This document shows positions 2,607 to 17,451 of a DNA stretch of 17,451 bases, in pieces. A program made the translations under genes and the position numbers. The number at the start of each line of letters is the position of its first letter. Position 1 is the first letter of the stretch. The DNA is taken from positions 1-17,451 of the forward strand of contig BDIU01000175.1 of the NCBI GenBank assembly GCA_002118135.1, in the 5' to 3' direction. This DNA comes from Trebouxia sp. TZW2008 (Eukaryota; Chlorophyta; Trebouxiophyceae; Trebouxiales; Trebouxiaceae). A model generated the notes under the pieces. It did not search any database. It saw only the letters and a list, made by a program, of their open reading frames with translations, and was not told the origin of the DNA.

Positions 2607-2679
2607 ACACTTCTTTTGTGACCTTGTTTTTCACCCCAATGCATCAGACATGTTTGTTTGAGAATCACTGGTTCTCAAT

Positions 2680-3240
2680 GAAGCGCTGCTGCAGTAGGTG
2701 CTCCCGAATCATGGCAAGCACACAGGACTGCTCAGCCAGATGTTCATGCATCCTGAAGCAGTGCACAAAAGTGCATCATACACAGCAAACAGCTCTGCCA
2801 TGCACCAGATGCTGCTGCTGTCATGGCATACTGTGACTTGTGAGCTGGTTTTCATTAAAGCGCTGCTGCAGTAGGTGCTCCCAAACATGGCAAGCACACA
2901 GGACTGCTCAGCCAGATGTTCATGCATCCTGAAGCAGTGCACAAAAGTGCATCATACACAGCAAACAGCTCTGCCATGCACCAAATGCTGCTGCTGTCAT
3001 TGCATACTGTGACTTCTGAGCTGGTTTTCATGGAAACACTGCTGCAGTAGGTGCTCCCAAACCATGCCAAGCACACAAGACTGCTCAGCTAGCTGTTTGT
3101 GCATCCTGAAGTAGTGCATCATAAACAGCAAACAGCTCTGCCGTGCACCAAATGCTGCTGCTGTCATGGCATACTGGACTTTGAGCTGGTTTCCATTGAA
3201 GAGCTGCTGCAGCAGGTGCTGCCAAACCCTGTCAAGCTCA
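2680..3240. repeat. Four-copy tandem repeat, unit about 165-177 bp
   Basis: The word GCTGCAGTAG (GCTGCAGCAG in the last copy) recurs at 2688, 2865, 3041 and 3206, giving spacings of 177, 176 and 165 bp. Each unit also repeats a block with AAGCACACAGGACTGCTCAG, a CATCCTGAAGCAGTGCA segment, CAGCAAACAGCTCTGCC and GATGCTGCTGCTGTCAT. The middle copies are nearly identical and the fourth is the most diverged. The 177-bp unit is a multiple of three, so long frames stay open through it on both strands. On minus, about 3263-2997 reads as a fairly protein-like unit (VWQHLLQQLFNGNQLKVQYA) that partly repeats. I cannot say whether it is a true coding repeat or a non-coding array like those in the TTC27 introns. 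Confidence 0.85.
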
Positions 3241-3491
3241 TATAACTGCTGTACCACACACAATTCCTTTCTCCATGTTTAGCCGCAGGAGTCACTTTGA
3301 CATGATCATGAAAGATTTCTCCGACAGCAGAGTGTGAGGCCTGATTGGAGCAATGCCTATGCCTATCTGTTGCATGCAAACGCAACAAGTTGTCCTTGCA
3401 CTGAGTCGTTTGGCCAAAAGCATTCACTCTTGTAACATCTTCAGGTCTGACTTTCAGCAACAACAGGTTCAACCCAAGACACATTCTTGCC
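3232..3491 (-). other. Possible minus-strand exon, function unknown
   Basis: After an acceptor-like CTGTTGCAG (ending at 3492) the minus strand reads open for about 85 codons. It passes through MCLGLNLLLLKVRPEDVTRV, CKDNLLRLHATDRH and SAVGEIFHDHVKVTPAAKHG. It then reaches the edge of the 177-bp tandem array, where AGG|GTTTGG could be a donor. The histidine-rich stretch has the texture of a real protein, but I recognise no domain. No upstream start or downstream exon can be tied to it with confidence, and it may be chance or a decayed gene. Confidence 0.25.
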
Positions 3492-4549: not shown

Positions 4550-5659
4550 ATGCAGGAGGAGCAGCTTGAGCTTAGACAGTTATATGGAGGCGCAGTACAG
4601 TTGAGCATGCCGCACCGCTTCCAGGATGTCAGTGACTTTCGACCAGTGCCTGATCATCAGGAGGTAGCACACATTGTGCAGCAGGATCGTGTCTCTTGTA
4701 CGTCAGGCATCGAATTATTCACAGGTCTGGACTGATGGCGCAATCGACCAGTCTCTCGTTGTTGAGATCGTGGTGAGCATGCGCAAGTGATCGCTGCTTA
4801 GGCCCTACGAAGAGGACTCTGCAGCGTGTCATGTGTTTGCATATGTGTTTGCAGGAGCACCAAGCCAGGTCAGATCAGGGTTGCGCGGAAGTTTACTTCC
4901 AGGACCTAGCTGACCGGAACGAAGCTGCACACTCTCAGATCCAGAACACTCAATTCCCAAGTGCGTCCTTGCCTGACTGAGCACAGAATGCAACTAGCTA
5001 AGCGCTGCCATTGCCCAGCACTGTGACAGGTACTGACTTTGCACTGCATTTTGACAATGTGCAGCTGACTGAAAGTGTATTGGCTAGCACAGCACTTTCT
5101 GATGCCATGTAATACTACAGGCGGAATTGGTGGCGGAGCTTTGAAGGCAATAGTCACGGGTTGTCAGTCCATTGCCAAGGGCAGGCAATTACAGGACACT
5201 GCGAACACTGTTCAGGTATGGAGCACTCAAACATGTGCATGACCGAACTGGTTGGAGACAATTGGTTGCTCCAGTATGTACCTAGCTGGGCCTGCTAAGC
5301 CTCCCTACATTCAGAACAAATTGATAAGATTGAAATGAATCTTGTGCAGGCACAACTATGATACACGATGTGCTGTCAGCGCTTGGCATGTATTGAGTAC
5401 AGAAGTTGTTGTCTGGGCATGATTGCAGTTGAATTGAATTGTGATGCATGTGACGCAGGTTCAGCTCGCTATTTTCAGGTATTCTGAACATGACACAGAC
5501 ATCCTAGTTTCTATGAACACACCCACATTCATCAATGCAGAAAGTGCTGCAGCAGAGCATGATGCGTCTGGGCAGAAAAATGATCACTTGAAAGCGCCTG
5601 AACTCTTTATGAGGATGCTCAAGACCTTTCAGGTCTCAGACTACTCACTGTTCGGCTGA
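4550..5659 (+). CDS. MOG1: MOG1 family Ran-binding nuclear import factor, complete, five exons
   Basis: MOG1 proteins (human RANGRF) bind Ran GTPase, promote nucleotide release and support nuclear protein import. The exons are 4550-4663, 4725-4772, 4855-4960, 5121-5215 and 5459-5659, ending in TGA. They sum to 564 nt, or 187 residues, the usual family length. All phases match (0, 0, 1, 0), all donors are GT, and the first intron is 61 nt. Family motifs appear in order: LYGGAVQLSMP, FQDVSDFRPVPDHQE (residues about 24-38), WTDGAIDQSLVVEIV, YFQDLADRNEA, TGCQSIAKGRQ and the C-terminal block FRYSEHDTDILVSMNTP. The tail runs through HLKAPELFMRMLKTF to SLFG, as in plant and animal relatives. The ATG at 4550 starts about ten residues before the conserved LYGG motif, as expected. 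The gene converges on TTC27. Confidence 0.93.
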
Positions 5660-6526
5660 CTTTGTTGGTGCGCAGCAGATAATATGCAAGGGCATGCAAA
5701 CTTGCTGGAATCAAATCACAAGCAAATATACGATAAGGCATTCCACCCTTCAGAATTACGAGACATATACAGTTCACCAGCAGGCAGGCATTCTTATTGT
5801 TCAAAATGGCTGGAAGCTGCGCCTCGCTATACACTGTCAGATTGCATATGTATATACTCCAGGGCTGCCTGCATAGACGCTTATGACGGCGTTTGCAACA
5901 GGGAAGCACATAAGTGAACCTAGCCTAGAGGCACCAACCAGTTACATGTCTTGTAACAGCTACTTGCTGTTTAATGATGTCATGAGTCGATACATGATTC
6001 TTTTCAGTCTACAAGCAGATCCATTGTTACAGCGTAGCTGCAGCTCAGTCTGAAGTACATTAAAGATGCAGCAGCAACTGTATAACCTATGCTCTGTGCA
6101 GAAGTGTGTGGCATATGCATCAGGTTAGATGTGAGTGGTGTCACAGATACTCTCTCATGCCCAAGTCAAAGAGCAGAACAAGCAGAAGCCCCTTAGATAC
6201 TCTCAGGCAGTCCAGCATGTCTGCAATTCTCCAGCTGCAGCTACGCCCAGCCCAAGCAAATGCATCAATCTTGCCCTGGCTCTAAGGCAAGACAATCAGC
6301 TACTGTGAAATTGCCTGACTCGTTATACAAGTAGAACTTTGCAGCGCAGCTTTATCAATCTTTTGCAGTGGCACCTGAGTGTGCAAGTGTGCTAAAGTGC
6401 TTGCTCCACCCAACCACTTAACATTCACTCGTAAATTGACAGCCCACACGATCCTCTGCATACACTGAGCAATTGACTTGCAACAAGCTGCAACAGCAGA
6501 TGACCACATACTTCCTAGTATTTTGC
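5660..6526. other. Convergent intergenic region / 3' UTRs
   Basis: The MOG1 stop (+) and TTC27 stop (minus) face each other across this region, which should hold both 3' UTRs. A plus-strand TGTAA, the usual green-algal polyadenylation word, occurs at 5952-5956, about 290 bases after the MOG1 stop. The open frames here, up to 96 codons, have no recognisable content. I see no RNA gene or mobile element. Confidence 0.5.
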
Positions 6527-6531
6527 TTACA
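6527..6531 (-). terminator. Likely TGTAA polyadenylation signal of TTC27
   Basis: TTACA on the plus strand, TGTAA on the coding strand, lies about 46 bases past the TTC27 TGA stop. In chlorophyte algae TGTAA is the dominant poly(A) signal, and this distance is plausible. The word is short, so chance occurrence is possible. Confidence 0.5.
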
Positions 6532-6576
6532 GATGAGACAGACAAGGGCAGCATTTCCTGCAGACCTTTGACATTC

Positions 6577-9500
6577 TCAACTCTTGGCAGCTTGTCTCTG
6601 CTCTGCTTCCAATGCTTCAACTTGCGTCAACAACTCTTGCATCTGCTGGTACAGAGCATACTCACTGTGCAATTCCGCAGCTTGCTTCAACGTCGTTCGC
6701 AAATGCATGCGAGCTGAAGCTAAGCTTTGGGCGCTGCCTTGACTGCTGCTAGCCATGTTCAGATGCAGCTGACACAGCTGTAGGGAAGCTTTGGCATATG
6801 TGTGAAAAGCAGCCGAGTCATTCTTCCATGAAGTGCCCTGTAGACCTCGAATCTGCTTTAGTAAAGCCTCTTTTGCACTGATTTGGAAACCCATGCTCCT
6901 GCAGCGCCAGCACGCAGCATGGATGACATTTTTCTCGGCTGAAAAGGCTCATATAGCCCGAGTGCATGGCGCTGCATGACATAGCATGGAACGCTGACAT
7001 ATTGCTCAGTCGTAATCTGTCCACTCACCAACACCAACTACAATGAACGAAGACAAACAATACAGATGTGACCAGCACTGGCAGCAATGCTCCTGCAGAA
7101 ATGTATAGAGGTCAACAAACCCTCAAAGACACAGTAAAGCAAGCTGATGCTTGAGCATTCTTGCAATACTCCTTTGAGTGATCAACAAACAGACAATCTC
7201 CTTGTTCATCAGATGTTACAGCTGTGGGAAACAGGCCTGTAGTACTGGGTGTACAACACAGAGAATGCTCAAGCGTTATTCAAACAAGCTTGGAGTGGCA
7301 GATGAGCAGATGCCTGGTGTGACTGATGGTTGTGTCATTGCTGTGGGTGACAATCTGGAGTACTGTAAATACAACACAGAGGTTATTGGAGCGTCACTCA
7401 AACAAAATGCAGCTCTGCTTGACTCAATTGCTAAGACATACAATAGTTCATTGTGGAACATCAACAAACAAGCTTTAATTGGTGTACCAGCACTTTGTCC
7501 AGTTCTCATGTTTGCTGCAGATGTGCTGACTGCGAGTAACAAACCTGTAATACTGTGCGTACAAGCCCCAGACAGCAGGGCTGCAGCCAGGGGCAGCGCT
7601 AGCAGCCTTCAGGGCTGCTGCAAGGGCTTGCTCTAACTGGCCCTGGGCATGATCTGATCCTATAGGCAACACATGGGTTATTGGAGATCCAACATGGGCT
7701 TTTGACTCGAAGCTTCCCTTGATGTGCTGATGTCTGCAACATTGTACCAATGGCAGGCTTATGCAAACAGCAAAGTGAATCACAATAGAAAGTCTGCTGT
7801 GGTGTGTAGCTGGAGCTGTATGGGGTCATGCAGACAACGTCAAGAGTCATTTGCAATTGCACCCATAATGCATATCGGTCAGCCAGTCATGATGGCAGCT
7901 GAAATCGCAAGTTGACAAGGTGAACAGCACTGCATGTCACTCAGTGAGCTGAATTCAACAGTCATGGGCAAAGTTTAGCAATGCAAACTATGTGACTGGT
8001 CGGCCAAAAGCAGTGGCTACAGCCATAAGGAATGCTAACGTTCCTACAAACGGGAACAGGAAGGAGAGAATCAAGGAAGAGAAGGAACAGGACTTGCCTG
8101 GAGCATCTTTGCCATCCAAGCCTTGCTGCTGCCTGACTTCTTGCAAGTGACTCAGCAGGAGCGTCAATATTTCCACTTCTATCTTCTGACCTTGCGTCAG
8201 CTCCAGCACCTGAAGAAGCATTTGCCATGCATTAGCTAGCCAATACAGCTGATTGCATGTGCCACATAACGGTGATGACACGTTCACAGGGGACGTATGG
8301 CAAGCAGCTCGCCCTTCAAGCAGCGACTGCAAAGGACACAAAAAGCAGGCAGCTTGCCATCTGAACCGCCCTTACAGCTGGTTGTTATATGCTAGTTTGG
8401 GCATGCATGTTGCCATTTGGACTGCCCTTATAGCTGGCAGATGGCTGCCAGGTTGGACAGCTGCTTGCCCACAGCTTTTGCAAAAGGCGCAAAAAGAAAA
8501 CAGCTTGCCTTCCAGAGAGCGAATCTCTGGAGGGCACAAAGGGCAGCCAGCTTGCCTTTTGAACTGCCCTGACAGCTGGCAGGTGGTTGCCACATTGGGC
8601 AGCTGCTTGCGCACAGCTGTTGCAAAATGCACAAAAGGCAAACAGCTTGCCCTTCCAAAACCAATGAGGAAGGCCGCAAAAGGCAAACAGCTTGCCTCTT
8701 ACTGAGTTGGTGATCTGGAAGCAGATTTCCAAACTGCACTGACGAGCAAGCTTTGGGAAGTCGCCGAGATTCCATATCGTAGCAACATTCAAGCATTTGT
8801 GCCGTGAAGAAACTGTTGCTCTCAAACAACTTGCCTTTTGTACTGCCCTGACAGCTGGCAGGTGGTTGCCAGTCTGTGCGGCTGCTTGCCCATAGTTTGC
8901 CCAGGTCTGCCAGCTATCGCGTTTGAATTTGACAGCCTCACTGAGCGCTGAGAAGGCCTCTGGAGCGTGAGCCAGTTGCAAGTGGATGGCTGCGATGTTG
9001 TTCCAGGCTTCCCCGTTGTCAGGCTCCTGTTGCGCACACCTTGTAAATGCCTGCACCAAGTAATTCTAATGAGTGTGCATATGTCAAGTGCCTTGGGCAA
9101 ACATGCCTTGTTCCGAGGTACAAAACAGGCTGAAGTGACCTGTGATTTCAAAACAACTCATGAGCACAAACCAGAGCATGCAGCTCTGTGTAAGAGAAAA
9201 CATGCAAGTTCTCATAATAGGACAGGTACAGTAAAACTTGTCATGGCAAGCAACCGTGTGCTTATTTGTCGTGTGCTTATTTGGGTGTCTCAAGAGATCA
9301 GAATCAGACAAGACAAGAAAGACACATTGCACAGAATGTGTGTTGGTGATGCTTGCCTGAGGTGCTCTCTAGCTTTTGTTTGTCTTGAGGCAATCAAGTC
9401 TATCACGGCAAGTGATTGTCTTATCTCGTTGCACTATAAACTAGAATGGAACTACACAAACAGAAACAAAACTTTAGTCCTGAAGACTGATATTACTTGC

Positions 9501-12500
9501 CTGAAGTGCTCTCTGGCTGTTGTGAGTCTTCAGACAGCAGTAGCCCAGCGCGAACCAGCCCTGAGGAAACAAAGGATTCAGCCCCAGGGCATTTTCCCAA
9601 TGCCCTTCAGCCTGCAGACACAGAAATACTCCAATTTTTTTGATGCAGACATTTCTAACAAGGACACTTTTTATGTATAGGCAATGCAACTGGCAAGCAA
9701 CGACTGCAGTAGACTGCAGTGACACTTGTGTATACCGCTTGGCCCATCCAAGGACATAGTCTGTGTTTGTGAAATTGCACAGAGTTGCTACATGCAGTGT
9801 TCTGTATGTCCTGATATCATGTAGAACAGGGAGCACAAGCTTGTACCCTAAACCCTAAACCCTGCTGGCACAATTGTCCATCAAAATGATGCTCTGCTGA
9901 CTGTCTGACAGGTTGCTGCCAGCGCTGCCAACTGGTCCAAGCTGGTGCTGCTGCTACTGATGCTGCTGCTGCTGCTGCTGGTGCTGGTGCTGGCACTCTG
10001 TCACTGAAATGACTTTGCCACTGTTTTGAAATTTTGATCACTGCATTTGTGCCAATTCGTGCCCAAGAAACCAACTTTGAGCATCAGCATTAGCTTACGT
10101 ACCTGTTCTCAGCATTGCCGGCGCTGTGCAAAGCGTGCCAGAAAGGTGATGATGATGTGGCTGTTACCACTGGTATTTTACAGTCAAACTTTTGTGAGTA
10201 TGAGGATCAGTGTGACTATACGCATGACAATGTCTGTGACTATCAAAGAGACTGATTCAACCTGTTCCTGGCATTATTGGCGTTGTGGGGTGCATGCCAG
10301 GGAGCGCTGCGCTTGCGTGCTGTGGCCCTTCGAATCTGTTTCAGCCAAAATGAGCAGTATAGAACATATCAAGTGGCTATATTACCTGTTCCCAACATTG
10401 TTGGCGCTGTGGAGAGCGTGCCAGGGAGCGCTGCGCTTGCGTGCTGTGGCCCTTTGACTCTGTTTCAGCCAAAATGAGCAGGTATGAAACAAATCAAAGC
10501 GGCTAGACTACCTGTTCCCAGCGTTGTTGGCGCTGTGCACAGTGTGCCAGGGAGCGCTGAGCTTGTGTGCTACAGCTGTTTGACTCTTTTTCAGCCAAAA
10601 TGAGCAGTATGAAACAAATCAAAGCGGCTGTATTACCTCTTCCCAGCTTTGTTTGCGCTGAGCAGAGTGTGCCAGGGAGCGCTGCGCTCGTGTGCTGCGG
10701 CCCTTTGACACTGTTTCAGCCAAAATGATCAGTATGAAACAGAACACAGTGGCTATATTACCTGTTCCCATCGTTGTTGGCGCTGCGCAGAGCGTGCCAT
10801 GGAGCGCTGAGCTCGTGTGCTGCGGCCCTTTGACGCATCCCAAGCATGTTGGTAATGACTGTCGTCCAAAGTGATGTCACCCAAGGCACACAGCAGGGAT
10901 GGGTCATCAGGCAGCACCTAAAACAGTGCAGGGTAAATGTAAGATCAGACGCTTTGGACTCTGTGGTTTTAGGTCAGTCGCGCAAAACACAGAGCAACGT
11001 CCTGGGGCACCTGCAGCAAAGTTGGCTCACAGTCAATGCTCAGATGCTTTCCAATTGACAACGAGGAGTCAAGTATGCAGCGTGCCCGGCGTGCTCGGCG
11101 TGCCTGTGTTTCAAGGCACACAGCAAAGCAGCACCCTCCTTTCAAGCCTGTGGTAGAGAGAGCACTTGTCACCTCTCGACTTTCAGATGCCTGTTGACAA
11201 TTCCTCTAAGCTGTGATGTCACCCAGGGTACACAGCAAGAAGGTGCCATTGGGCAACATGTGCAGCAGGCAAGGCGACCTGAATCAGTTGATACCACAGA
11301 GAGCTTGTGACTGCCACTGAAGACCCACTGCACTGTGTTGAGCTGGCAGGGTCAAATTCAGAATCCTAGAGACAAGCAAAGACAAATCCCATACCTGCAA
11401 TCTAGCTTGAACTAGCTGCTGAGCCTGCGGCAGCTTCTGCAACAGGCGGAAGCAGATGATGAGGGAGTCCCACAGCTCTTCTTCCTCAAACAGACCCATG
11501 GCCGCCCCCACTAGACCCGTGCTCAACAATTGCTCACCCAACTCCTTTCGCAATGATGGTCTCAATGGAAACAACACTCCAAAAGCGTGCCTGAGACGGG
11601 TCATGACAGGGGGTTGGGGCTGATCCGCGCTCTCTGCTAGCTGTTGTAAATGCATCAAAGAGCGCTCCAGGGTACGAGTTCTGGTACGCTCATGGCGGGC
11701 TTGCAACAGTTGGGCTGTCGCTCTCACCAATGGATGACTCCTAGGCTGCCGCAACACTGCTTCAATGTAAGGTGCCATTTGCCACGCCTGCAAGATGCAG
11801 TTGAGGGTTTCAATTAGGTAACACCATGAAGACAAAGAAGGTTAACGGCGGGCTTGCAACAGTTGGGCCGTTGCTCTCACCAGTGGATGGCTCCTAGGCT
11901 GCCGCAACACTGCTTCAATGTAAGGTGTCATCTGCCACGCCTGCAAGACGAAGTTGAAGGTTGCAATCAGGTAACCCATGAAGACAAAGAAGGTGAACGA
12001 CGGGCCTGTAGAAGCTTGGCTGAAGCTGTGATCGTTGGGTGACTCCAGGGCTGCCTGAGCACTGCTTCAATGTAGGGAGCCATCTGTCATGCCTGCCACA
12101 TGCGGACGCAGACAAGTTTCAGGCACAACAAGATGCAGGAGAAGAAGATGACAGGCAAGAGAAAGAAGAAGATGATAAGCAGCCCTGATTCAGCAGGTGG
12201 CTCTTTTCTGCTGCAGCACTGCTGCAATGCAATGGACCATGCCCGTACCTATGAAGTGGAATTTAAGAGGGAAGAAGGGCACGAGAAGCAGAGGTGGAGG
12301 AATGATGGTAACAACCCTTGACTAGGGGTGCTTTCGCGGCTGCCGCATTACTGCTTCCAAGTCAGGCTCTATCTGTCAAGCCTGAGTTGCACCAATAGAG
12401 GTATCACCAAGAGGAAGGAAAGGCAAAGTGCAAAACATGCCCTGAGCATAGGGCAGCATCTTAAGCGTCAGAGCATGACTGTACGCGCCACATGACCGAT

Positions 12501-15500
12501 GACACCATTTTGATGCAATTGGCTCAAACAGCTTGACCAGCCATGTGAAACAAGGTGATGACTGCTTTGCATACAAACTCCAACACTGAAGCTGCGCTGC
12601 ATTTCACAAGCTCTTGGTGTTCTGGCTCTGAGTTTTGTCTTCTTGAGCGTAAACTCAACATGTCAGACTATTCAAAAGTCCTTGACAACACCAGCAGGAT
12701 GACGTTAAAGACAATGAGCACACCTGCAATTCATCAGCAGATGTTCCTTTCTTGACTTGCTGTGCCCAACCCAACAGCGCAGCCTGCTCCAGAGCCCCGA
12801 GGGGTTTACTCTGAGACCCCCCTGGACCCGCCACCAGCTTAGGGGCGCTCAGCACATCCGAGTCAGTGCTCAGCCCCTTGAGCTCTGGGGACTGAGCCTG
12901 CGACCCGAGGCTCATGGAATCTAAATCTGCTGAGTCATCTCCGCTGACGTATCCATCATCATCACCCTGAGCTGAGTGCGAGGTGGAAACAATCAGTTGT
13001 GCTTTAGGGTCCACCTGATGGGCAGTGCGCACTCCCATAGCACCTGTAGCAATGAACGTGTGGTGATGCCTTGTTGCAGGCAAGTATGTAGTTGTGCGGC
13101 CTCACGTGACATGACAGACCGTCACATTGATGCATTGCTACTTGACTGAACTACTCTCTTAGGATTGTCAATATAAGCTGCTGCTGTGTACAGGTCACTG
13201 GGCACGCTGGGGCTCACGCCGTCCTTAGTCAACAGACAATGACAAAGGGCTTCATGAATAATTTGACTTGACTTATACAGCTACTGCTTACAGTTCAGCA
13301 TCCTAAACCTGTGACAGTGCTGTGGGAATTGGGAGGGGTCAAAGTGAGTTGAACGGCCCAAAGACAATGTGCTTCAAGGACAAGATGACAAGTAGTATGA
13401 CATGATAGTATGTACCCTGTCAGTCTGATGTTACTGCTGATGCAAAAATATACAGACAAGAAAAGGGACATGAATTGGCAGAGGTACAAAACCAAGAGGA
13501 ACAATCAAAACAGCCCTTGGATGGACCTTCAACCAAATTGCATGCCTTTCTAAGAGCCTTTGACAGGGCAAGGCAGTCCAGGGCATTTCAATAAGCCCCT
13601 GCAGACGCTTTGTAAGTATTTTGCATGCATGCATGATACTAAAGCACTTGAGACCAAAGAAGAACACAGCATGGGGACCAACAAGAAGACAGCAGCTGAC
13701 CTTCCACAGTAAGTTCCATGCCAAGGGCCTGCCCTGCTGCCTGCAGGTGGGGCAGGGCAGCCTGAGGGCTGTTGTACACATGCTCCACAAGGGCACTTTC
13801 CAGCTCTGCTGCAGCTGTGAAAGCTCCCCTGCTGATGCCTAGGTTCAATTGAGACTCTGGCCCAAAAGACTTGATGACCTACAGCAGAAAAGCAGAGGTG
13901 TCACCAGTTTCACCCAAAACGCAACTTCAAATAAAGCTTTGTTCCCAGGTTCATGGTCAACTTGGTTGCCATGTTGATCAACAACGTAAAATTTCACAAA
14001 AGGGTGGGCTATGACAAGCAGCAAAGCAGTGGAAATCCTGGCAGTAGACATTGTCACAGAGACCGCCTTCTAAGAATGCAGACGGTGTGTCAGATGTTTG
14101 CGCTTTTGGACGACAAGCTATTGAGCAGACATTTGGACTTCTGCTGCTTTGCACGAAATCATGCATAGTAGTAGCCTGACCTGGACCACATCAAGCGCAA
14201 ACTCAAAAACTTGAAAGCCGCAGACTAACCAGCTCATGTGAGCAACATCGTGAGTCAAAGTGAACATTCATTGAATCAGGAAAAGTCCAGAATTCAACAG
14301 GTCCCGGACCCTACCTGAGGCATCAACATGGACAGTGCAGACTTGAGAGTGGCAGCAGGTTTGGAAAGTAACCGTTGATTAGTCAACAGAACTCTGGCAG
14401 TCCACCAACTCCAGCTGGGAAGCTGAGTCAGCACTTCTGAGACTTTGTCACCATCAAACGGCTCATTAGCACTGTTGGCTCCAAATGTTATGCCTGCAGA
14501 TCAGTACTTCAGGGCATGAGATAGCCAAGGTGCAACTGGTATGGCTTGAAATCTTTTGCACTTCCCCTTTGTACGTCCACGTGGTTTGTATCTGCCTATA
14601 TTGGCAATATTGCATCAAGAGCATTTCCAAAACTTCTGTTGATTGCCTCCTTGTTGCAAGCAATCATAAACTCAACAGTTTGCAAGCGGGCCAATAAGGT
14701 GTTGCATTCAGGCTGACTCAACTGTTTGAAGCTCTTGCGATTGTATGAACCAGCTTTGTGCTTGATGCTCACGAAGAGGTTTTGCCAGCAGCAGATACTG
14801 TGGCATGAACACTTTGCCTGTGACCTCCTACCCATCAACTGCTACATGGTCTCTATGTAGCCCATGATATTGTGTCCTGAGATATGCAACAGCTTTTGCT
14901 CAGGACTCCCCAAGAAGTTTTCTTGAGAGCGTTCTCGCCAACAGCAAATACTGTGGCAATTGCACTTTGCCTGTGACCTCTTCCCCATCAACTGCTACAA
15001 TTTTGATATTGTCTATCCAACCCTTTCAAGCCTTTGCCAATATATGCAACAGCCTTTTGCTCTGTAATTACAAGTATATTTGCCAAGAGTCCTTGCAAAC
15101 AGCAGGTACTGTGGCAATCGCACTTTGCCTGTGACCACTTCCGTATTCACTGCTACACTGTTTATGTTATTGCTGCAACCCTTTGAAGGCTTTGCCAGGG
15201 TAAAAACAGCTTTTTGCACAGGACTCACCAAGAGGTTTTGTTAAGAGTGTTCTCGACAACAGCAGGTACTGTGGCAGTCGCACTTTGCCGGTAACTTCTT
15301 CTCCGTCCACTGCTAATTGCTGACAAGCCCATCTGTCTCCTGTGCTGGTTGTGTCGTGCCCCAATACAGTCGTGGGTGACTGGGCTCCAGAAGCAGGGTT
15401 TGATAGGGTTTTGTGTGGCAGAAGCTCAGCAGGACATTCTGGACACTCTATCGGGGGTCTGCAGCAGTGGTGTTTAATCGATTGAGTCACTGGTGAATAG

Positions 15501-16052
15501 AAAATCAGCTGTGGAAGCCTTCCCTTGCAGCCATTTTGGCATGAAGACGGCATGTGATTGACAGTAAAGGGTCCAGAAATAGCTGCAAGAGTGCAACAGG
15601 ACAGCTGCTGCAAATAACCGCAAAACTCAGATCATGCTAGAACTTGGCAATCAGAGCATGCTGGGTCTTTTGCTGTGCAGAATGTTGCTTGCAGGATGTG
15701 GAATATCAGCTGGCCATGCATGAGCATTGCAGCATTCCATCTGCGAATCAAGGACACTGTTTTGAACTTGCCCTGCGAGGTTGGCTTGAGTGAACACCAG
15801 CAAGGATGCGACTGCAGATTCAAGCCGGGAAAGCATGTCAGCGGCGGACTGCTGCTGTTGAACATGCTGCTCAATGGCGCGAAAGTAGACCTCTGTCGAA
15901 AAGAGCGCCTGGTCAGGTGGCTGCACCCACGGCTGCGCTTCAGGGTGCGACAGGGCAGCTGCGAAGTTGCCCTTCAGGACGGCCTGTAAAACTGCTGTCC
16001 GCTCGCCTGGAAATCGCACACAATATTGATGCCGTGCTTCAATTTGCGACAT
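6577..16052 (-). CDS. TTC27: TTC27-family tetratricopeptide repeat protein, complete, twelve exons
   Basis: Exons on minus: 16052-15772, 15458-15229, 14493-14315, 13878-13701, 13043-12724, 11787-11395, 10917-10762, 9611-9501, 9050-8835, 8209-8098, 7659-7545, 6898-6577. They sum to 2613 nt (870 aa, TGA stop); human TTC27 is about 843. All phases match. Family landmarks run in order: VLKGNFAAAL and QANLAG (N-terminus), VDGEEVTGKVRLPQYLLL, LPSWSWWTARVLL, GAMGVRTAHQVDPKAQLIV (residues ~290), WQMAPYIEAVL (~398), LLSTGLVGAAMGLFEEEELW, LGDITLDDSHYQHAW (~538), LNPLFPQGWFALGYC and EPDNGEAWNNIAAIHLQLA (TPR core, ~590-645), VWGLYAQYYR, then a helical C-terminus with LEALEAEQ-like sequence. Exon 5 carries an acidic serine-rich insert. 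Introns 1, 8, 9 and 10 have GC donors. The family is thought to act in protein assembly; the molecular role is poorly defined. Confidence 0.93.
7225..7400. repeat. Diverged copies of the exon 11 donor edge in TTC27 intron 11
   Basis: The exon 11 3' edge reads, on plus, AACCTGTAATACTGTGCGTAC from 7542. Related words occur at about 7237 (CCTGTAGTACTGGGTGTAC) and 7351 (CTGGAGTACTGTAAATAC), each followed by ACAACACAGAG. They look like older copies of the same junction, weaker than the other arrays in this gene. They give a 152-codon antisense frame over the intron that I do not treat as a gene. Confidence 0.4.
8345..8834. repeat. Tandem copies of the exon 9 donor edge in TTC27 intron 9
   Basis: The last ~45 bases of exon 9 and its GC donor read, on plus, from CTTGCCTTTTGTACTGCCCTG at 8830. 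Copies begin at about 8691, 8551, 8409 and a truncated one at 8353, giving a period close to 140 bp. The 8551 copy is nearly identical (TTGCCTTTTGAACTGCCCTG). The others are more diverged. A linked intronic word, CAGCTTGCC(C)TTCC, recurs at about 8645 and 8503. The array lies wholly between the exon 9 donor and the exon 10 acceptor. Confidence 0.75.
9340..9410. repeat. Copy of the exon 8 donor edge in TTC27 intron 8
   Basis: On plus, CTTGCCTGAAGTGCTCTCTGG at 9496 is the end of exon 8 with its GC donor. A near copy, CTTGCCTGAGGTGCTCTCTAG, lies at 9352, 144 bp away. It is followed in both places by a related TTGT(T)TG/TTGTGAGTCTT segment. It includes the GCAAG donor. One clear extra copy is seen. 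Confidence 0.65.
9846..9863. repeat. Interstitial telomere-type CCCTAAA tract
   Basis: Eighteen bases read as CCCTAAA twice plus CCCT, the complement of the TTTAGGG telomere repeat of plants and many green algae. It sits inside TTC27 intron 7, so it is not a chromosome end. A tract this short could be chance, or a scar of break repair that captured telomere repeat. Confidence 0.6.
9945..9993. repeat. Impure CTG/GTG trinucleotide repeat in intron 7
   Basis: About 50 bases of CTG units with a few GTG and CTA/ATG interruptions lie in the middle of TTC27 intron 7, about 80 bases from the telomere-type tract. It is a simple microsatellite. On minus it gives an alanine-rich frame with no sign of coding. 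Confidence 0.8.
10095..10761. repeat. Five tandem copies of the exon 7 donor half in TTC27 intron 7
   Basis: The 3' half of exon 7 with its donor (on minus TGGGAACAG|GTAAT) is repeated outward into the intron. On plus, the ACCTGTT or ACCTCTT donor word is at 10101, 10260, 10384, 10510 and 10635, with the working one at 10760. Spacings are 159, 124, 126, 125 and 125 bp. Copies at 10384, 10510 and 10635 still read open as forms of SKGRSTRAQRSLARSAQRQQ on minus. Those at 10260 and 10101 carry an in-frame TAA and TGA. Each copy is preceded by TTTTGGCTGAAACAG-like sequence that could mimic an acceptor, but inclusion would shift the frame. Confidence 0.88.
10975..11280. repeat. Copies of the exon 7 acceptor half in TTC27 intron 6
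   Basis: On plus, exon 7's 5' half includes GTGATGTCACCCAAGGCACAC (from 10871). Related segments occur at about 10981 (weak), 11112 (CAAGGCACACAGCAAAG) and 11211 (GTGATGTCACCCAGGGTACAC), a period of about 112-115 bp. The 11211 copy still reads LLCTLGDIT on minus, matching LLCALGDIT of the exon, then soon meets a stop. With the intron 7 array this shows the same exon duplicated at both edges. Confidence 0.7.
11788..12395. repeat. Four tandem copies of the exon 6 acceptor edge in TTC27 intron 5
   Basis: The first ~33 codons of exon 6 with its acceptor are repeated upstream in the intron. The working acceptor is at 11788. Acceptor-like positions in the copies are about 11941, 12094, 12245 and 12381, so spacing is 153, 153, about 151 and about 136 bp. 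The copy at 11941 is nearly identical and reads WQMTPYIEAVLRQPRSHPLV before a TAA. The next reads MAPYIEAVLRQPWSHP but has a TGA in its second codon. The outer two are strongly diverged. Divergence grows with distance from the exon, as if duplication moved outward over time. Confidence 0.88.
14715..15228. repeat. Three tandem copies of the exon 2 donor half in TTC27 intron 2
   Basis: The exon 2 end (VDGEEVTGKVRLPQYLLL) with its donor recurs three times downstream. On plus, ACTGTGG marks the working copy at 15268 and extra copies at 15108, 14950 and 14797; spacings are 160, 158 and 153 bp. The 15108 copy reads EVVTGKVRLPQYLLFARTLG but has lost the GT. The 14950 copy keeps AVDGEEVTGKVQLPQYLLLA, with the donor changed from GT to GG. 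The 14797 copy has an in-frame TAG but retains a CGTGAGC donor. Intronic sequence beyond the donor (GGCTTTGCCA, AACAGC..TTTGC) is carried along in the unit. Confidence 0.88.
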
Positions 16053-16878: not shown

Positions 16879-17451
16879 TTATGACTTCCAGACAGCTCCT
16901 CTGCGAGACTCCGGCGGTTTTGGACGACCATCCACCCATTCCAGAAAAAGTTGCAGGATGTTTAATGCGGCATTTACGTCTCGGTTCCACAACGCACGAG
17001 GACTTTCTGTGTTGAGGCACAGTCGTGCACTGTAGCTCCAGGAGCCGTAATCCCGCGGACCCCTTTCTGCAGGCAGGGGCAGTCAACTGCTCAGAGCAAG
17101 CCATAACTGCTACTACTGCAGGTTGGATATTGTGCAATGCATGTACACTTGGCCAATGACAAGCTGTGCTGAAAGTGAGCATGCTTGCAGGAAGTACATC
17201 TAGGCATGTAGTCAATGCCTGTGCAATACATCTGCAGCCTGACTACAACTTTGACAGGGGGTATTACCTGTAAGGGGAAGCTTCATGCCGTCCATCCTGC
17301 TTTTGCACGCACAGCACAGCATGCTGGTGCGGAATTCGTCTGTATTGAACACTCTGCAGCACTGCCCTAGCTTGCGGCCCAGAGTCACGTCTATCAGATT
17401 GGGGTGATGCTGCTAAAGTTCCTGGAGTTGTCAGCGGCCAGCAGAGCATTT
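16879..17451 (-). CDS. Fanzor-type (TnpB-like) RNA-guided nuclease, 3' end, two exons, cut by right edge
   Basis: Fanzors are eukaryotic relatives of TnpB: guide-RNA-directed DNA nucleases often carried by transposons. The last exon, 17066-16879, reads RLCLNTESPRALWNRDVNAA then LNIL and ends GAVWKS-TAA. WNRDVNAALNIL is the RuvC-III block; its catalytic Asp codon is 16980-16978. The preceding exon ends at 17268 and reads VFNTDEFRTSMLCCACKSRM, the family's DE.RTS..C..C zinc-ribbon start (Cys codons 17316 and 17307). The two join in phase 1 over a 201-nt intron (ACAG|GTAATA ... CTGCAG). In the second zinc pair the first Cys (17019) remains, but the expected partner at 17004-17002 is Ser. Upstream of about 17412 the frame meets TAG (17415-17413) next to an acceptor-like TTTAGCAG, so an exon boundary or a frameshift lies there. 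Identification rests on these motifs. Confidence 0.75.

Follow-up and report, generated by a model that had tools for sequence, protein, structure and literature searches.

Tandem arrays of short units are familiar from minisatellites and from nucleosome-length satellites, the monomers of which often measure 150-180 bp, and duplication mutations are known in yeast and human cells from rad27/FEN1 flap-processing mutants or from stress. Closer to gene structure stand the single cases of tandem genomic duplication such as that of the potato RdRp gene where, according to the available text, a duplication can cross the exon-intron boundary and creates a new intron (PMC4974935). Small tandem duplications at DNA breaks are described, in the available part of another report, as short insertions under 100 bp (PMC8355091). 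Among the matches listed for Trebouxia, we found no paper on such duplications, and words beginning with “tandem” are absent from the available main text of two Trebouxia genome papers (PMC12712428, PMC11523091) and of an Asterochloris paper (PMC6652019).

The window studied here, the whole stretch of 17,451 nucleotides of Trebouxia sp. TZW2008, very likely a lichen alga, that was analysed, carries a TTC27-like gene whose introns hold copies of its exon edges. Unlike minisatellites and satellites, such arrays have few copies, and five of the six that were searched are unique in sequence. They resemble tandem genomic duplication intron gain in that local head-to-tail duplications overlap gene structure, cross the exon-intron boundary and carry old splice signals in the copy, whereas here it is apparently pre-existing introns that were lengthened, and in many genes (compare PMC4974935, available text). 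With the small duplications at breaks they share head-to-tail order and local placement, yet their median unit is 144 bp and they occupy roughly one fifth of the DNA sampled (compare PMC8355091, available part). Like the rad27/FEN1 duplications (PMC13202174, available text), they are proposed to be tandem duplications made as errors of lagging-strand replication, but in a natural genome rather than in mutants or under stress.

Here, we propose that the TTC27 edge copies are probably remnants of genome-wide, likely nucleosome-length head-to-tail duplications, the exon copy having likely been kept by selection while the intronic copy drifts. This is based on the copies themselves and the head-to-tail order in which they stand, on finding them in unrelated genes as well as in blind stretches, on the distribution of unit lengths, on the pattern of decay, and on the uniqueness of five arrays.

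Exon-edge copies in the TTC27 introns

When the TTC27 model was rebuilt (Table 1), splice phases matched at all junctions, and the protein of Trebouxia sp. C0006, 80% identical to the model over residues 150-870, aligned gap-free at 11/11 junctions; at junction 10, the protein alignment has small inserts in three more distant algae. The splice sites are predictions from these phases and this alignment. Intron 7 also contains an interstitial telomere repeat, and in the intron 8 pair a GC donor is found in both the exon 8 edge and its copy.

Table 1. The TTC27-like gene and the copies in its introns (positions in the window; p from the edge test described below)
Feature	Position	Strand	Members and basis	Unit or measured spacing (bp; measured values are approximate)	Edge identical to intronic copy
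TTC27-like gene, 870 aa, 12 exons	6577..16052	(-)	splice phases and C0006 protein alignment		
Exons 1-6	16052-15772, 15458-15229, 14493-14315, 13878-13701, 13043-12724, 11787-11395	(-)			
Exons 7-12	10917-10762, 9611-9501, 9050-8835, 8209-8098, 7659-7545, 6898-6577	(-)			
Intron 2 array, exon 2 donor edge	14775..15357	(-)	exon copy 15246-15357; three outward copies 15086-15197, 14928-15039, 14775-14846; edge test and spacing	about 158	65/79 (p 0.002)
Intron 5 array, exon 6 acceptor edge	11694..12384	(-)	exon copy 11694-11822; copies 11847-11975, 11999-12127, 12338-12384; edge test and spacing	unit 152-153, measured about 152	74/80 (p 0.002)
Intron 6 pair	10871..11258	(-)	exon 7 acceptor edge 10871-10916; distant copy 11213-11258	342	36/46 (p 0.002)
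Intron 7 array	10100..10856	(-)	exon 7 donor edge and five outward copies (10634, 10509, 10383, 10259, 10100)	125	65/73 (p 0.002)
Intron 8 pair	9352..9536	(-)	exon 8 donor edge 9496-9536; one copy 9352-9392	144	29/36 (p 0.002)
Intron 9 array	8299..8898	(-)	exon 9 donor edge 8827-8895; copies at 8548, 8406, 8350	about 142	53/61 (p 0.002)
Intron 11	7210..7564	(-)	weak exon 11 donor-edge copy; intronic pair	118	17/20 (p 0.016)

In the edge test, 80-nt exon edges were compared with their own intron against 500 dinucleotide shuffles each, which sets a floor of p 0.002. A significant copy of the exon edge lies in the adjoining intron at 6 of the 22 TTC27 junctions, all at this floor, and 15 others stand at background level. 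The same edges reached at best 30 against other TTC27 introns and 24 against the reverse complement, likewise background, the six hits scoring 37 to 130. An earlier note, made from the letters alone, had claimed junction copies in introns 2, 5, 6, 7 and 9 and, as probable, in introns 8 and 11, affecting donor and acceptor edges alike; the copies proved significantly similar to donor edges at introns 2, 7, 8 and 9 and to acceptor edges at introns 5 and 6, leaving intron 11 with a weak match. Details differ from that note: intron 6 holds a single distant copy and no array, and from its list of periods, that of 112 bp was measured nowhere (intron 11 gives 118 bp).

Occurrence, unit length and uniqueness of the arrays

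The pattern had been taken to belong to one gene, which did not hold. The same edge test placed 8/74 junctions of nine CCT/Cpn60 chaperonin genes and 8/60 junctions of nine kinesin genes at floor p, with about 0.5 expected by chance among the 156 junctions of TTC27, chaperonins and kinesins (sets that omit 10/47 chaperonin and 4/34 kinesin exon pairs, for which profile gap or score gave no safe junction). Local tandem arrays with a unit of at least 60 bp make up 22.1% of the 120 kb in twelve blind 10-kb stretches, as against 22.3% of the window (about 19% without the array at 2668-3250), and they are found on 12/12 contigs; these stretches are bases 100,001-110,000 of contigs picked by number, 8/20 of which were too short, so that large contigs are favoured. 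Some arrays (5/63) lie in DNA predicted to be intergenic by a home-made gene finder that labels only 10% of the blind DNA so, probably too little. The finder returned 9/12 TTC27 exons exactly, though partly trained on them, missed a MOG1-like gene and miscalled one exon-edge copy as an exon. TTC27 is an ordinary example of duplications that are scattered through the sampled genome.

Among 93 arrays with a unit of at least 60 bp, the median unit is 144 bp (interquartile range 114-174). Units of 120-199 bp account for 53/93, and the mode at 140-180 bp holds 34 arrays where a fitted exponential gives 13.7. The length is not sharply nucleosomal, since 28/93 units measure 60 to 119 bp and 12/93 measure 200-399 bp; none of the 93 reaches 400 bp, with lags searched to 1500. 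In 202 kb, 382 segments are direct and 15 inverted, and the arrays are thus head-to-tail, with few, diverged copies each. The lag detector found no segment in one set of shuffled sequence and one direct segment in 50 kb of E. coli, the latter showing only that the detector is quiet. Of 13 young single-segment arrays, four have a ratio of aligned length to unit of 0.92-1.0 and nine a lower one.

Tandem copies within the introns of many genes might suggest an introner, a transposon or a shared satellite, and the window does hold one array in a dispersed element: that at 2668-3250, outside TTC27, is matched at 94% and 89% on two other contigs, for which reason it was dropped as an example outside genes, while still counted among the 93. 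We nevertheless regard such an origin as exceedingly improbable for the edge copies, and reject an introner or transposon for the arrays tested. The TTC27 edges match no other TTC27 intron, and in a whole-genome search of six arrays, five (introns 7, 2 and 5, the last queried with 11694-12127, and two blind arrays) match their own locus only. Within the 202-kb sample, 87/93 arrays have no blastn hit elsewhere, and the hits of the other six are 26-46 bp long among the matches listed. In place of the shared monomer and long homogeneous arrays of a satellite there are few, diverged copies, genome-unique in 5/6 searched arrays, and the arrays of introns 7, 2 and 5 lack the similar intron sequence at many unrelated loci that characterises introners. 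The central claim of the earlier note, a recurrent junction-spanning duplication that lengthens introns and is distinct from introners and transposons, is upheld by these same three arrays and by the edges.

Decay of the copies and possible preference for exon edges

Leaving out the L026 acceptor and the L030 donor, which scored under 36, 20 of 22 positive junctions remain. In these, differences between exon and copy fall at codon positions 1, 2 and 3 in 57/412, 38/418 and 97/416 cases, a proportion near 1:1:2, as a constrained exon and a drifting copy would lead one to expect. An assembly artefact, for which one might point to the 527 contigs of the assembly, is scarcely credible given copies that have diverged, differences that follow codon position and arrays on every blind contig. 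Because selection acts on exons, the copies run outward and the predicted working splice site lies in the exon copy. That selection keeps the copies as spare or alternative splice sites is very improbable: the splice dinucleotide is retained in 13/19 copies (one of 20 rows, the L023 donor, was aligned to itself and set aside), with acceptors at 8/10, but about 11 would be expected from identity alone, donors stand at 5/9, and the codon-position pattern fits drift.

The copies contain intron flank as well as exon, which, as far as the predicted junctions go, points to growth of an existing intron. Median intron length is 623 with arrays (n=23) and 313 without (n=55), a difference partly expected as longer introns have more room for arrays, and the extra copies are estimated at 5,280 of 33,149 intron bases.

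Do the duplications favour exon edges? An edge is included in 23/26 intron arrays, where uniform placement gives 12.6, and in 41/62 blind-stretch arrays, where it gives 17.9. The blind counts run too high, since arrays can contain false exons (one was seen) and since each array was scored over its full span while the expectation assumes a single unit. After detection is corrected by a factor of two, the excess persists in the gold introns (23 against 16.2, P 0.002) and the blind stretches (41/62 against 26.9, P 0.0001), and with age-matching it is marginal (13/31 against 8.4, P 0.049). Age-matching combined with the twofold factor (12.8 of 31, P 0.54) corrects one bias twice, and we have set that figure aside. 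With ancestral introns of 200 bp and the twofold correction, however, 21.1 of 26 are expected (P 0.23). The longer detectability of exon-anchored pairs and shorter ancestral introns explain the excess at least in part, while some true preference is possible because the excess survives single corrections. A duplication mechanism that favours exon edges, linked to the spliceosome, to R-loops or to exon nucleosomes, would account for it, but we consider this unlikely, as the exon share of the unit ranges from 0.06 to 0.74 (23 edges), with no fixed phase relative to the splice site, and as arrays also occur in predicted intergenic DNA.

Origin and meaning of the duplications

How might these duplications arise? 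We infer the molecular step, for which it is the size distribution alone that fits an Okazaki flap model. About one nucleosome length of DNA would be copied twice during replication or repair, our preferred route being the faulty maturation of a nucleosome-sized Okazaki fragment, in which the displaced flap would be ligated instead of cut. Such an error would yield a direct tandem duplication of at most one fragment, and would explain why units above 200 bp are scarce. The same genome-wide duplications could instead come from fill-in repair (by Pol alpha-primase/CST or NHEJ) of breaks whose staggered nicks lie in neighbouring linkers, a reasonable possibility that falls short of a likelihood. 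In mouse cells, staggered breaks give rise to small tandem duplications by this route, but as short insertions under 100 bp against the median of 144 bp here (PMC8355091, available part); the telomere repeat in TTC27 intron 7 would be consistent with break repair that adds DNA.

A unit that spans a splice junction would not alter the protein while the exon's own site is used, and the extra copy would become intron; selection would likely retain the exon copy, the intronic copy would drift, and the intron would remain longer. Selection would usually remove a unit that falls wholly within an exon. More tentatively, and with rather more doubt than conviction, we suggest that a dominant mutational process, as yet undescribed, may make the genome grow, each event duplicating about one nucleosome (one Okazaki fragment), with the junction copies as its fossils and introns lengthening in nucleosome-sized steps.

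The surprising part is the genome-wide process, not TTC27 itself. How introns lengthen without transposons is an open question, and the steps are still legible here. Copies of exon edges could act as a clock, given the constraint on the exon side, and the distribution of unit lengths suggests that chromatin or lagging-strand replication is the ruler. Such arrays can mislead gene finders and may escape repeat libraries, as most of the searched ones share their sequence with no other locus. Should this be confirmed, Trebouxia would offer a natural case where much of the non-coding DNA comes from nucleosome-length duplication and not from transposition.

Exon-edge copies in a TTC27-like gene

In the gene model, which encodes a product of 870 residues, every splice phase matches. 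The closest relative of this product is a protein of Trebouxia sp. C0006 (80% over residues 150-870), the alignment showing zero gaps at the TTC27 junctions, and the name tetratricopeptide repeat protein 27 is given to several relatives, e.g. in Coccomyxa sp. Obi and Chlorella vulgaris. The source genome (68.5 Mb, 527 contigs, of which the window is C168) agrees in size and GC with published Trebouxia genomes, given in the available text of PMC11523091 as 63.08-73.88 Mb and 49.64-51.05% GC; the source organism is very likely a Trebouxia lichen photobiont. GC donors occur in 4 of the 11 TTC27 introns and in 0 of 67 introns of CCT and kinesin genes, a rough comparison with splice scoring weighted towards GT.

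Features located in the window
Feature	Position	Strand	Remarks
TTC27-like gene	16052 to 6577	minus	12 exons placed by splice sites
GC donors, TTC27 introns 1, 8, 9, 10	15771, 9500, 8834, 8097		
Fresh copy of exon 6 acceptor edge	11881-11940	minus	labelled exon by ab initio model
Interstitial telomere repeat	9846-9863	plus	CCCTAAACCCTAAACCCT; inside intron 7
Likely MOG1 (Ran-interacting) gene	about 4551-5876	plus	convergent with TTC27; outer limits by eye
PF04603 match in MOG1 candidate	5438-5659		E 0.006, under curated cut-off
Array	2668-3250		176-bp units, about 3 copies, two 95% alike
Open frame	2268-2606	plus	no Pfam match
Open frames	16879-17412	minus	CxxC and WNRDVNAALNIL stretch; PF07282 at E 0.12 only

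Arrays (local head-to-tail tandem duplications) were recovered by TRF and a repeat finder at the positions named in the earlier note. At each of 22 junctions, the 80-nt exon edge was aligned with the intron it adjoins and with 500 dinucleotide shuffles. The exon-edge copies are real: the lowest reachable p (0.002) was obtained at 6 junctions (donors of introns 2, 7, 8 and 9; acceptors of introns 5 and 6), while exon edges set against control introns and reverse complements gave background level only. Thus copies previously reported in introns 2, 5, 6, 7 and 9, and as probable in intron 8, stand, and intron 11 is left with a weak donor copy (p 0.016). The alignments run past the splice site into intron sequence, which makes the duplicated units genuine junction sequence. 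Going outward along the intron 7 array, resemblance to the exon copy declines (0.76, 0.74, 0.69, 0.57), as expected under stepwise growth.

Intron 7 also holds a telomere repeat, which could be a telomerase-patched break; genome-wide it has 29 matches, at 16 places and the end of contig C120 (reversed control: 0).

Spread across genes and contigs

The same test was positive in other genes. Pfam profiles were used to pick comparison genes unrelated to TTC27 (nine fetched per set), with repeats not looked at: PF00118 gave 63 exon matches and PF00225 gave 146. The introns of these genes were located via profile continuity, phase and splice score. CCT/Cpn60 genes gave 8/74 positive junctions, in 7 of 37 introns (37/47 exon pairs usable), and kinesin genes reached the floor p at 8/60, 6 of these scoring 36 or more (30/34 pairs usable). 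The TTC27 rate (6/22) exceeds both, in a gene with long introns that was chosen for its pattern.

Twelve blind stretches of 10 kb (12 of 20 requested existed) were scanned with TRF and a gapless self-lag detector, which found nothing in a shuffled set. Arrays with units of at least 60 bp were present on all 12 contigs and made up 22.1% of the 120 kb; the corresponding shares were 9.5% for the gene loci and 22.3% for the window. Of the blind-stretch arrays, 5 of 63 fell in intergenic DNA, according to a home-made gene finder. Local segments were direct in 382 cases and inverted in 15 (1 and 0 in a 50-kb E. coli control).

Six arrays were searched genome-wide, with common words skipped: those of introns 7, 2 and 5, the tabulated 176-bp array, L006:6604-7411 and L013:3222-3692 (sampled stretches). 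All but the 176-bp array matched only their own place, and blastn found a match elsewhere in the sample for 6 of 93 arrays. The 176-bp array also matches contigs C420 (94%) and C21 (at its end, 89%) and therefore lies within a dispersed element, which perhaps includes the neighbouring open frame. In the tabulated minus-strand open frames, the CxxC and WNRDVNAALNIL stretch resembles the C-terminus of Fanzor/TnpB. In L006, positions 4601-8643, predicted intergenic, hold three large adjoining arrays (units 188, 178 and 163, one 93% alike), a possible hot spot; the 178-bp array is found nowhere else in the genome.

Unit length, placement and mechanism

Duplication is local and head-to-tail, with units mostly of 100-200 bp. 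Among the 93 arrays with units of at least 60 bp, the median was 144 bp (IQR 114-174), with 28 at 60-119, 53 at 120-199, 12 at 200-399; no unit reached 400 bp, with lags searched up to 1500. A fitted exponential was rejected (observed distance reached in 0/5000 simulations; 34 units of 140-180 vs 13.7 expected), and young arrays (identity at least 0.85) were alike, with 20/30 units at 120-199. One nucleosome length of DNA is probably copied twice, most likely through ligation of a displaced Okazaki flap. Okazaki fragments are nucleosome-sized in yeast. The main rival is a fill-in reaction at breaks, carried out by Pol alpha-primase with CST (PMC8355091).

An exon edge was included in 23 of 26 arrays (unit at least 60; 78 introns) vs 12.6 under uniform placement, and in blind stretches 41/62 arrays overlapped a predicted edge vs 17.9 (41/63 vs 18.2 in another count). 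Exon-anchored pairs stay visible up to twice as long because decay acts on one side only; a second bias is that introns were shorter before growth. With a twofold detection factor the excess stays (23 vs 16.2, P 0.002; 41 vs 26.9, P 0.0001), with age matching it is marginal (13/31 vs 8.4, P 0.049), and with 200-bp ancestral introns plus the twofold factor it vanishes (21.1 of 26 expected, P 0.23). Among 23 edges, two of them limited by the length of exon searched, the fraction of the unit lying in the exon varied between 0.06 and 0.74, and no phase was favoured. Most of the excess can be accounted for by random placement together with selection; exon edges may be modestly preferred.

Copies, intron length and annotation

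Exon and copy differ at 57/412, 38/418 and 97/416 sites of codon positions 1, 2 and 3, near the pattern predicted when selection holds the exon and leaves the copy free to drift, and the splice dinucleotide is kept in 13/19 copies vs about 11 expected from the mean identity of 0.76. Median intron length is 623 bp with arrays vs 313 without; of 33,149 intron bases, about 5,280 are estimated to belong to extra copies.

Such intron lengthening is unreported among the literature matches listed. Trebouxia repeat content is put at 9-16% and 12.72% in the available texts of PMC11523091 and PMC12712428 respectively, and a term search of both main texts gave no word starting with 'tandem'; repeat libraries may miss arrays whose sequence is unique to them. 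The process differs in scale and outcome from known intron gain by tandem genomic duplication, in that the introns of many genes appear to be lengthened, by units of characteristic length. Exon-edge copies can mislead genome annotation.
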